A stretch of DNA of 64,000 bases from Natronolimnohabitans innermongolicus JCM 12255 (GTDB lineage Archaea > Halobacteriota > Halobacteria > Halobacteriales > Natrialbaceae): assembly GCF_000337215.1 (NCBI RefSeq), contig NZ_AOHZ01000075.1:2371-66370 (forward strand), written 5' to 3'. Position numbers and translations under genes: made by a program. The notes below the pieces were generated by a model. That model made no database searches. It was not told the DNA's origin and was given only the letters and a program-made list of their open reading frames with translations. Shown here one piece after another: positions 2,552-51,553 of the stretch (the stretch's first letter is position 1; the number at the start of each line of letters is the position of its first letter).

Positions 2552-3557
2552 GGATCTGCAACCGCTCACGCCGTCCGAGGGCGTCGATATGTTTCTCGAG
2601 CACCGGAAGCCGAGCGTCCGCGAGTCTTCGATGCAGAACGCACGGCACCGACTCTCGGTGTTCCTCGAGTGGTGTGAGGAAGCGGAGATCGACAACCTGA
2701 ACGATCTGACCGGACGCGAGCTATCGTTGTTCGTCAGCTGGCGTCGAGGCGACGTTGCCCCGATCACGTTGCAAAAGCAGCTGAGTAGCGTTCGGATGGC
2801 CCTGCGTTGGTGGGCCGATATCGAGGCCGTCGAGGATGGGCTCGCGGAGAAACTTCACGCGCCCGAGCTGCCGGACGGCGCCGAATCCCGCGAGGTGTTC
2901 CTCGAGGCCGACCGCGCGAAGCAGGCGCTTCGGTACTTCGACCGCCACCACTACGCCAGCCGCGATCACGCGCTTCTCGCGTTGATCTGGCGAACCGGGA
3001 TGCGCCGCGGTGCAGTGCGCGCACTCGACGTCGGGGATCTCGACGAAGATGAACAGGCGATTCGCGTCGAGCACCGACCTGACACCGAAACTCCGCTGAA
3101 GAACGGTGACAGCGGGAGTCGGTGGGTCTACCTCGGTCCGCGGTGGTTCCAGGTCCTCGACGATTACGTCACCAATCCCGACCGGAAGACCGTTGTCGAC
3201 GAGCACGGTCGCCGACCGCTGTTCACGACGCGACAGGGAACGCGACCGACCGGCCACTCGATCTACAAGTGGATCATTCGCGCGTTGCACCCGTGTACGT
3301 ACGCGGAGTGCCCGCACGATCGGACGCCGTCCGACTGCGAAGCACGGGGCGGAAACTCGAGTCCGTCGCGATGCCCGTCTGCGCGATCGCCGCACGCGGT
3401 CCGTCGCGGAGCGATCACGAACCACCTGAACGAGGAAACCGCCCCTGAGACGGTTAGCGAACGGATGGACGTCTCGCTCGAGGTGCTGTACGAGCACTAC
3501 GACGCGAGAACTGAACGAGAGAAGATGACGGTCCGACGCCAGGACGTTCCGGAGTAA
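2535..3557 (+). CDS. tyrosine recombinase / integrase (XerC/D-like, haloarchaeal element type)
   Basis: A 340-residue site-specific recombinase. Residues about 15-105 are the SAM-like core-binding domain (VRESSMQNARHRLSVFLEW). The catalytic domain shows the active-site set: Arg157 in TGMRRGA, His287 and Arg290 in SPHAVRRG, and the nucleophile Tyr319 or Tyr322 in YEHYDARTE. Between the first Arg and the HxxR box is a Cys/His-rich insert (CTYAEC ... DCEARG ... RCPS), a feature I associate with haloarchaeal integrases and probably zinc-binding. All catalytic residues are present, so it may be active. Two tRNA 3'-end copies follow directly downstream, as expected for an integrase at the end of a tRNA-targeted element. 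Confidence 0.92.
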   Translation: MVTVSEDLQPLTPSEGVDMFLEHRKPSVRESSMQNARHRLSVFLEWCEEAEIDNLNDLTGRELSLFVSWRRGDVAPITLQKQLSSVRMALRWWADIEAVEDGLAEKLHAPELPDGAESREVFLEADRAKQALRYFDRHHYASRDHALLALIWRTGMRRGAVRALDVGDLDEDEQAIRVEHRPDTETPLKNGDSGSRWVYLGPRWFQVLDDYVTNPDRKTVVDEHGRRPLFTTRQGTRPTGHSIYKWIIRALHPCTYAECPHDRTPSDCEARGGNSSPSRCPSARSPHAVRRGAITNHLNEETAPETVSERMDVSLEVLYEHYDARTEREKMTVRRQDVPE

Positions 3558-50043: not shown

Positions 50044-50124
50044 GCCAGGATGGCCGAACGGTAAGGCGCACGCCTGGAAAGCGTGTTCCCTTTGGGATTC
50101 AGGGTTCAAATCCCTGTCCTGGCG
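50044..50124 (+). tRNA. tRNA-Ser (GGA anticodon)
   Basis: An 81-nt class II tRNA. Acceptor GCCAGGA pairs with TCCTGGC, then discriminator G. The anticodon arm is CACGC-CTGGAAA-GCGTG with GGA anticodon, reading UCC/UCU serine codons. A long variable arm (ttccctttgggattc) identifies serine. The T-arm is CAGGG-TTCAAAT-CCCTG. No intron and no encoded CCA. A T-run (ttttt) follows directly, likely its terminator. Confidence 0.93.
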
Positions 50125-50128
50125 TTTT
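50110..50128 (+). repeat. tRNA 3'-end direct repeat, left copy
   Basis: ATCCCTGTCCTGGCGTTTT, spanning the end of the T-loop to just past tRNA-Ser. It matches 51535-51553 at 17 of 19 positions. The preceding bases are TTCAA. Confidence 0.6.
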
Positions 50129-50269
50129 TGGACGATTGTTGAATAACCCACAGACAATATGATATGTGTCAATATTCGACAGAACGTATCCTCATCACCA
50201 ACGCTATTCTCACCGCGATATTTTCCCCTTACATTCAATTTATACTGATTCACCAATTACTGAAATGTA

Positions 50270-51490
50270 GTGGCTGATGACGACTTCCTGAGACGCACCG
50301 CGATTACCCGTCTCTTGCTCAGCGACCACCAGCGGCAGATACTCGAGCAAACGCTCCGTGAGTGGCAAATGGCGTGTAACATCAGCAGTCGCATCGGGTG
50401 GAACGCAGGAGAATCGCGGAAGATGCAACTCCAGCAACTCGCGTACGAGGACGTCCGCGAGCAAACCCGTCTCGGGAGTCAACACGCAGTTCTCGCCACA
50501 CATCAGGCTGCAGCAGCACTCTCTGGTATCGAAGAGATCGAATCGTTGGACGAGGAGTACGACACCTCTCGTCCGACATTCACCAGCGATACGCTCGTAT
50601 ACGACTCACGCTCGATGACGGTGTTCGACGATGACTCCGTGTCGCTGGCGACGGTCGAAAACCGAATTCGATGTGATCTTTCACTTCCCGACGACAGTGA
50701 CGGCTATCAGCGACGATATCTCGAGTCTGAGGAGTGGGAACTCACTGAATCGACGATGTCGAAACGAGATGGTGACTGGTATCTCCACCTCGGGTTTCGC
50801 AAACCGAATCCACAGCCAAAACTCGAGACGAACGACGGGAACAGGACAGTTCTCGGAGTCGATCTCGGTATCGTTAACATCGCAACGACCAGCACAGCCT
50901 ACTTCGCGTCAGGACGAGAACTGCGCCACCGGCACCGCGAGTTCGATCGGATTCGATCGAATCTGCAACGAATCGGTACTCAGTCGGCACATCGTACCCT
51001 CGAGCAAATAAGCGGGCGAGAATCACGATATCTTCGAGAGACGTTGCACATCGTCGCCAACGATATTCTCGAAGAAGCGATCACGCACGGTTGCGAGTAT
51101 ATCGTTTTCGAGAATCTGAAACACATTCGCGAGCGTGCACCGCCGGTAAAGGAGTTCCATCAATGGGCCCACCGGCAACTCGTCGATCTGGTCGAGTACA
51201 AAGCCGAGGCCGAAGGCGTCCGCGTCGAGTTCGTCTCGCCGGAGTACACGAGTCGCCGGTGCCCGGAATGTGGTCACACGTGCGCAGAAAACCGGGTTCG
51301 GCAGGCTGTCTTCGAGTGTGTCGAATGCAGTGCGACGGCCAACGCCGATTACGTTGGTGCAAAGAACGTCGGATGGCGTTTTGTCCGCCGGGGCCTACAG
51401 TCGTCTCGGCGGACGGGCGACGGTCAACTCGCCCTGAAGTCAGGAACCGTGAAACCGGTGCAGGGGTTCGTTCCCGCCCGTTCTGGGTAA
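50270..51490 (+). CDS. tnpB: TnpB (IS200/IS605 family RNA-guided nuclease)
   Basis: A 406-residue haloarchaeal TnpB. The RuvC catalytic triad is complete: Asp198 in GVDLGIVN, Glu281 in IVFENLKHI, Asp360 in ANADYVGAKN. The zinc finger has Cys331/334 (CPECG) and Cys350/353 (CVEC). YEDVREQTRLGSQHAVLATHQAA and GRELRHRHREF match other haloarchaeal TnpBs. GTG start at 50270; no ATG in frame before the conserved start. No TnpA partner is nearby, so the element may be unable to transpose by itself. It begins 145 bp after tRNA-Ser. Confidence 0.93.
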   Translation: MADDDFLRRTAITRLLLSDHQRQILEQTLREWQMACNISSRIGWNAGESRKMQLQQLAYEDVREQTRLGSQHAVLATHQAAAALSGIEEIESLDEEYDTSRPTFTSDTLVYDSRSMTVFDDDSVSLATVENRIRCDLSLPDDSDGYQRRYLESEEWELTESTMSKRDGDWYLHLGFRKPNPQPKLETNDGNRTVLGVDLGIVNIATTSTAYFASGRELRHRHREFDRIRSNLQRIGTQSAHRTLEQISGRESRYLRETLHIVANDILEEAITHGCEYIVFENLKHIRERAPPVKEFHQWAHRQLVDLVEYKAEAEGVRVEFVSPEYTSRRCPECGHTCAENRVRQAVFECVECSATANADYVGAKNVGWRFVRRGLQSSRRTGDGQLALKSGTVKPVQGFVPARSG

Positions 51491-51534
51491 CGGTTGGGTT
51501 CACTGACAAGCCCTGCTTGCTCAGGGTCGTTGAC
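51380..51534 (+). ncRNA. predicted omega-RNA / right-end region of the tnpB element
   Basis: The guide RNA of TnpB elements normally comes from the 3' end of tnpB and the right end. Here the right end appears to be near 51534: after the stop comes GGTTCACTGACAAG and a hairpin CCCTG-cttgct-CAGGG (51511-51526), then GTTGAC. The 5' limit given is approximate. Transcription is not shown. Confidence 0.4.
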
Positions 51535-51553
51535 ATCCCAGTCTTGGCGTTTT
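51535..51553 (+). repeat. tRNA-Ser 3'-end direct repeat, right copy (predicted TnpB guide)
   Basis: ATCCCAGTCTTGGCGTTTT follows directly after the element's apparent right end and repeats the end of tRNA-Ser (17 of 19 bases). By position, this is also the segment that would serve as guide in an omega-RNA. Confidence 0.55.

Follow-up and report, generated by a model that had tools for sequence, protein, structure and literature searches.

A haloarchaeal TnpB beside a recoded tRNA-Ser gene, with a guide resembling the other tRNA allele: a possible natural cleave-and-rescue cassette

Introduction

TnpB of IS200/IS605 insertion sequences (PMC8612924) combines a RuvC triad, an omega-RNA at the element's right end with the guide just outside that end, and a target-adjacent motif (TAM) that is also the insertion motif. 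A tnpB gene in 64,000 nucleotides (nt) of Natronolimnohabitans innermongolicus JCM 12255 (contig NZ_AOHZ01000075.1; this whole stretch is the window, and coordinates are window positions) belongs to the same protein family and has the same layout. It departs from the described elements in that its left end has been lost, TnpA was not found among the eight larger neighbouring open reading frames (ORFs) scanned, a recoded transfer RNA (tRNA) gene, tRNA-Ser(GGA), is attached, and motif and target are intact in relatives rather than only as an empty site.

A plasmid insertion sequence has been described whose TnpB acts as a gene drive, cutting the element-free allele so that the carrier is favoured (PMC11870625); the locus described here differs from it in occupying an essential chromosomal tRNA locus with a recoded, apparently resistant copy travelling along. 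In intronless homing (PMC2988022), the free-standing phage endonucleases SegF and SegB, the latter lying between tRNA genes, are encoded near their targets and cut the related allele, with co-conversion of the flanks; their sites are protein-recognised and their setting is phages, whereas recognition here would be RNA-guided, in tRNA coding sequence and on archaeal chromosomes. The likeness to intronless homing is one of sequence: the locus has a nuclease gene beside its putative target, an own allele predicted to be resistant and a rival allele that matches the guide. Synthetic cleave-and-rescue and home-and-rescue drives (PMC7951863, PMC7968924) set a nuclease against an essential gene and supply a recoded, uncuttable copy; those are engineered, and this one would be natural. 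An essential gene as putative target and a recoded copy that could serve as rescue are both found here. The TldR proteins, TnpB-like RNA-guided transcription factors (PMC13418256), are likewise related to TnpB and have retained a fixed guide; they differ from the present proteins, whose catalytic triad is intact. Expression of omega-RNAs has been reported in haloarchaea (PMC12558985). Our literature search found no title or abstract on tRNA-linked TnpB, with most subscription papers and preprints outside its coverage. The patterns reported below point to a nuclease and guide under selection and to a neighbouring tRNA that escapes the guide.

Results

The window locus was initially annotated as carrying a copy of the tRNA-Ser 3' end in guide position, just past the right end of the TnpB element. 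This placement holds: the right copy (51535-51553) is identical to the end of the tRNA-Ser (50110-50128) at 17 of 19 bases, and the right end at 51534 (ending in GTTGAC) is supported because the same box, hairpin and tail precede the guide in relatives and free copies of the element end there. The locus comprises the following features.

50044..50124, + strand: tRNA-Ser(GGA) gene, the recoded ('resistant') copy, found by ARAGORN and Rfam; T-stem CAGGG/CCCTG, 5/5 paired
50105..50109, + strand: TTCAA in the T-loop, the TAM of this TnpB clade as taken from free copies
50110..50124, + strand: counterpart of the guide in the own tRNA, the potential self target, with mismatches at positions 6 and 10
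50125..50269, + strand: spacer between tRNA and tnpB, in which a search found no left-end sequence of the kind known from free copies
50270..51490, + strand: tnpB, 406 amino acids with a GTG start (ORF and domain matches); RuvC triad D198/E281/D360 intact
51501..51534, + strand: 3' part of the omega-RNA scaffold, with box CACTGACAAG, hairpin at 51510-51527 and tail end GTTGAC, a layout common to related loci
51535..51549, + strand: 15-nt guide, ATCCCAGTCTTGGCG, equal to the other tRNA-Ser(GGA) allele (CCCAG) except for one C-to-T change (wobble) at position 10
51550..51553, + strand: TTTT 3' of the guide, also present in the tRNA's own T-run; the DNA further on is not conserved (next 30 nt 0.40 identical among lineage-A relatives, defined below)

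The guide differs from its own tRNA at position 6 (A for T) and position 10 (T for C). The host's own allele reads TTCAA-ATCCCTGTCCTGGCG, and the presumed other-allele target TTCAA-ATCCCAGTCCTGGCG. A chance origin of the right copy was rejected: it is the only other site with at most three mismatches on either strand of the 64-kb window, and shuffled sequences averaged 0.02 such sites. We likewise rejected a guide aimed at another tRNA of the host: of all TTCAA-preceded sites in its genome, the neighbouring tRNA-Ser(GGA) itself comes nearest to the guide, with two mismatches.

The TAM could be read independently of tRNAs. In 39/54 free-standing copies of the clade whose left end was recognised by script, the five bases before that end are TTCAA, and the guides of free copies are unrelated; the TTCAA of the tRNA T-loop is therefore the element's own target motif, as had been proposed from the window alone. 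Guides of tRNA-linked loci start exactly at T-loop+1, and the five bases before them are scaffold tail, with TTCRA in 0/54. This match start, together with the lost left end, is compatible with a founding insertion into the T-loop.

To place the locus among its relatives, we searched overlapping sets of 41, 125, 392, 30 and 48 genomes for TnpB matches. The tRNA-Ser region was matched in 41/41 genomes of the first sample, six further genomes of which have TnpBs of the same clade directly behind the same tRNA-Ser. For 177 loci, protein matches picked for retrieval and mostly the best ones rather than all, the surrounding DNA was read; a tRNA lay within the retrieved stretch at 57, and at 54 of these the guide matches the 15 nt that follow TTCRA in the tRNA, a fraction that is not a prevalence because of how the loci were picked. 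Set aside were two loci (L051, L081) where a match without mismatches was the neighbouring tRNA-Leu itself, one (L055) whose guide had no match and whose tRNA was 2.4 kb distant, and the duplicates L001, L047 and L054. At L060, L167 and L217 the guide was placed by hand from the scaffold tail, the automatic best match being elsewhere or weak. Fourteen tRNA species are represented: Ser(GGA) at 19 loci, Thr(GGT) at 12, Ser(CGA) at 8, Met(CAT) at 3, Gly(CCC) and Ile(GAT) at 2 each, and Arg(GCG), Asp(GTC), Gly(GCC), Leu(CAA), Lys(CTT), Pro(CGG), Pro(TGG) and Ser(TGA) at one each. The arrangement first seen in the window is real at that locus, and it recurs across these tRNA species.

Guides differ from their own tRNA at a mean of 3.0 of 15 positions, against 6.2 with tRNAs shuffled among loci. 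At three loci (L153, Lys; L165, Asp; L127, Ser-CGA) the guide still matches the tRNA end although the tRNA is inverted and downstream of TnpB. Reading more upstream DNA added a 55th case (L151, extended as L259), where the recoded gene, a tRNA-Thr, lies 1.8 kb upstream and TnpB is directly preceded by a copy of the tRNA end. A FastTree phylogeny required 14 switches between linked and free states, at least 10 of them on well-supported branches, in a quick tree with long branches that does not separate gains from losses.

We noted that own tRNAs would escape the guide in one of two ways. Every TTCAA-bearing own tRNA (45/45) has at least two mismatches in 15, and none (0/45) is mismatch-free over positions 1-12, whereas 4/9 of those bearing TTCGA are mismatch-free over positions 1-13 (Fisher 4e-4 against the TTCAA group). 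Discounting wobble-compatible differences, 0/45 TTCAA and 6/9 TTCGA tRNAs are mismatch-free (Fisher 3e-6). Mismatches in the TTCAA group (n=45) peak at position 6 (30), followed by 9 (22), 7 (21), 10 (18) and 4 (11). Among 392 genomes, three (G007, G352 and G405) have a tRNA-Ser(GGA) with TTCGA, and at the first two (L028 and L177) it stands beside a TnpB with a perfect 15-nt guide. For a Sulfolobus TnpB, one study (PMC11043419) reports that cells survive when the fourth TAM base is changed from A to G (TTTAA to TTTGA), which weakens the TAM, and that single mismatches are tolerated when the TAM is strong; these data agree with the two routes to safety here, an altered TAM or at least two mismatches. 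The initial suggestion that the two differences at the window locus may be protective fits the own tRNAs at the 54 loci, with the tRNA-Asp locus a partial exception.

Own T-stems are paired at 270/270 positions (268 Watson-Crick), against 216/270 when the guide is substituted as the 3' strand. The tRNA gene has therefore been recoded on both strands, rather than the guide alone having changed. Allele lists were compiled for Ser(GGA), Ser(CGA), Thr(GGT) and Ile(GAT), and consist of the alleles among the matches listed. Across the 41 loci with these four tRNAs, guides have a mean of 2.88 mismatches to the own tRNA and 1.05 to the nearest other listed TTCAA allele (0 mismatches at 8 loci, 1 at 27, at least 2 at 6), a comparison that somewhat favours the other allele as the best of several, with just one or two alternatives for Ser(GGA). 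C-to-T changes, compatible with U-G wobble pairing, account for 31/43 of the residual differences. Several guides find their match in other genomes: the tRNA-Thr(GGT) end TTCAA-ATCCCGGCCTAGGCT, common among the matches listed, is matched exactly by the guides of L056, L119, L123 and L172; the guide of L168 equals a Ser(CGA) allele of at least nine genomes in its own genus, from which its own tRNA differs; and the guide of L159 equals the commonest Ile(GAT) end among the matches listed at 14/15 bases, its own Ile(GAT) allele occurring in no other genome among those matches. The own tRNA is thus mismatched, as first noted at the window locus, and the difference does not reside in the guide copy alone: the tRNA is recoded and guides match relatives' alleles.

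The family's tRNA-Ser(GGA) alleles among the matches listed read CCCTG or CCCAG followed by TCCTGGCG, plus one CCCCG. An intact tRNA-Ser(GGA) end with T-loop and T-stem usually occurs once per genome among the genomes listed, and the gene is essential. Two TnpB lineages divide these alleles between them. Lineage A, to which the window TnpB belongs, has CCCTG as its own allele and a guide against CCCAG (9/9 loci); lineage B has CCCAG as its own and a guide of the CCCTG kind (7/7 loci, one of them, L128, decayed). The association of lineage with allele gives a Fisher value of 8.7e-5, ignoring kinship and omitting the Ser(GGA) loci outside both lineages (L028, L177, L205). Lineages A and B both occur within genera g1, g14 and g42; host genus therefore does not set the allele. 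Such linkage across genera is only suggestive as a sign of biased inheritance or co-conversion. Lineage A and B guides, L128 excepted, also carry an extra C-to-T change at position 9 or 10 that no listed allele with an intact T-stem has, and this change is absent at the two loci whose tRNA has TTCGA.

Separately, at L007, L015, L017 and L020, stretches of about 100-150 bp 3' of the tRNA-Ser(GGA) end in a second tRNA 3' end that includes the T-loop, and some of them carry inverted GGGATTTGAATCAGGG-type sequence. They are probably remnants of integrase-borne elements.

The window TnpB matches the Pfam families OrfB_IS605 and Cas12f1-like_TNB above their cut-offs, scores 147 bits against NCBIfam guided_TnpB (cut-off 100), and matches Cas12f and TnpB chains in PDB by sequence. 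The RuvC D-E-D triad is intact in 52/52 near-full-length tRNA-linked TnpBs, 51 of them without a stop. TldR proteins are nuclease-dead, and the intact triads led us to reject a regulator of that type. Ratios of nonsynonymous to synonymous substitution rates (dN/dS) were 0.05-0.30 in 10/12 pairs; the other two, Thr pairs that are nearly identical, gave 0.42. Sequence resembling the left end was recognised at 3/51 tRNA-linked loci, each at the three-mismatch limit, against 84/102 free loci; the window locus is not among the three, and so lacks the left end of a complete, mobile IS200/IS605 element.

On the right side, sequence and predicted structure have the layout of an omega-RNA scaffold with an adjacent guide. 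The omega-RNA tail is kept in linked loci while hairpin sequences vary, and 33 of the 53 loci folded (of 54) had z scores below -1.5 against mononucleotide shuffles, which keep single-base and not dinucleotide composition; some of the script-chosen segments were poor. Within five groups of like loci, guides are 0.87-1.00 identical and the next 30 nt merely 0.23-0.40. L261, where at 2879-3130 a recoded tRNA-Thr precedes no more than the N-terminal part of a TnpB (its first 68-83 codons), is as expected of a decayed cassette of nuclease, guide and tRNA that has kept its recoded tRNA.

Genes neighbouring the window locus encode L-PSP (Rid) family, SRAP and TCP-1/cpn60 chaperonin proteins, an Lrp/AsnC-type regulator, glutamine synthetase and an ABC transporter. 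Elsewhere in the survey, sampled genomes of family f17 (genera g40, g54 and g75; L179, L181, L182, L184-L198) each have a single TnpB relative that is 46-49% identical to the query. By eye, no omega-RNA end could be recognised 3' of its stop, and these are possibly domesticated TnpBs.

Discussion

We consider it reasonably probable that these loci are cassettes of a TnpB and a recoded tRNA that cut rival tRNA alleles and spare their own, in the manner of intronless homing and cleave-and-rescue. The anatomy, the TAM, the recoding on both strands, the self-avoidance, the match to relatives' alleles, the conservation of guide and nuclease and the linkage of lineage to allele are features read from the sequences. 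Such a cassette would have two parts: a TnpB with an omega-RNA whose 15-nt guide equals the 3' part of a tRNA after its T-loop TTCAA, and an adjacent tRNA recoded either by flipped T-stem and acceptor-strand bases or by a change of the TAM from TTCAA to TTCGA. An ordinary allele might enter a cassette-bearing cell by mating or transformation, or be present among its many chromosome copies. TnpB would then cut the ordinary tRNA gene, and once the break was repaired from a cassette-bearing copy, the recoded tRNA, TnpB and guide would all be in place at once; any cell regaining the ordinary allele would come under attack. We infer transcription, cleavage, killing or conversion, and the cassette's spread. 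Haloferax volcanii is reported to be able to repair CRISPR-inflicted chromosome cuts by homologous recombination (PMC7521656), which makes conversion by the cassette plausible.

A broader form of this proposal is possible, and we hold it only tentatively. Haloarchaeal TnpBs would be a natural RNA-guided cleave-and-rescue drive that has repeatedly captured at least 14 kinds of tRNA genes, because the conserved T-loop contains the TAM TTCAA, with nuclease, guide and recoded essential tRNA spreading as a unit. The rival Ser(GGA) cassettes A and B would attack each other's tRNA, and the extra C-to-T change in their guides, counting as a second mismatch, would sharpen discrimination between own and rival alleles.

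Several observations weigh against a cassette that cuts rival alleles. Our counts are uncorrected for relatedness, as the statistics ignore kinship. One genome (G405) has a tRNA-Ser(GGA) with TTCGA and no TnpB there, and recoded tRNA-Thr or tRNA-Ser(CGA) genes occur without any detected TnpB at L260 and L262-L265. The tRNA-Asp of L165 keeps TTCAA and matches the guide at positions 1-11, differing only at 12-15; the guide of L127 is closer to its own TTCGA tRNA than to any other listed allele; and that of L128 has decayed. The TTCGA of Gly, Pro and Ser(TGA) tRNAs could simply be their usual T-loop, the survey of TTCGA frequency having covered Ser(GGA). Finally, most Ser(GGA) guides differ by one C-to-T change from every listed allele, so that a TnpB cutting the presumed target would have to accept one wobble pair.

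The alternative that survives best, though we regard it as unlikely, is a guard against mobile elements, in which the TnpB guide would cut integrative elements bearing an attachment site (attP) that reproduces the 3' end of the ordinary tRNA, the host tRNA having been recoded to escape both cutting and integration. tRNA-Ser(GGA) does resemble an integration hot spot, with 3'-end duplicates that include the T-loop downstream of it in the TnpB-less relatives L007, L015, L017 and L020, and a downstream copy of the tRNA end was found in 0/9 genomes with TnpB against 19/53 without (hand count of the 62 genomes listed; two-sided p 0.047). That exclusion may merely reflect occupancy of the site, and an effect of this small size fits a drive too. 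Canonical targets in IMG/VR amounted to one contig for Ser(GGA) and none for Thr(GGT), and the match of guides to relatives' chromosomal tRNA alleles is something a guard would need only through mimicry by attP.

We think it very improbable that the arrangement is a passive footprint, left when an insertion sequence entered the T-loop and the tRNA was rebuilt by recombination, with the right copy a functionless, decaying remnant. The match does begin precisely at TTCRA+1, the point at which the old tRNA end would remain after insertion 3' of the TAM, and decayed guides exist (L128, L060). Identity of 0.87-1.00 among guides beside nearly random sequence in the next 30 nt argues otherwise, as do intact triads in 52/52 proteins and dN/dS well below 1, and drift would not predict the self-avoidance pattern. 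Slightly less probable again is a regulatory use, in which TnpB binds or nicks near tRNA genes and so controls transcription or replication rather than cutting rival alleles; that these TnpBs stay with tRNA genes and have lost their mobility sequences would suit it, but the triad is intact throughout (52/52), unlike that of nuclease-dead regulators, and in most surveyed loci the guide fits another known allele better than the own tRNA. It is barely credible that a tyrosine integrase duplicated an attachment site at the tRNA gene and that TnpB came along as a passenger: integrase-type duplications do occur at the same tRNA in relatives, but those copies include the T-loop, where TnpB loci have scaffold tail (TTCRA in 0/54).

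If the loci are indeed cassettes that cut rival tRNA alleles and rescue their own, nature would have preceded engineers with a drive that cuts an essential gene and carries a recoded copy, using an RNA-guided relative of Cas12 and taking tRNA genes as its target. This would explain the persistence of lone tnpB genes without a transposase, as well as the allele switching of haloarchaeal tRNA T-stems. The loci also make natural pairs of guide and target available for measuring how TnpB discriminates mismatches and TAMs, and they would be a case in which the shaping of tRNA evolution by RNA-guided nucleases can be tested directly.
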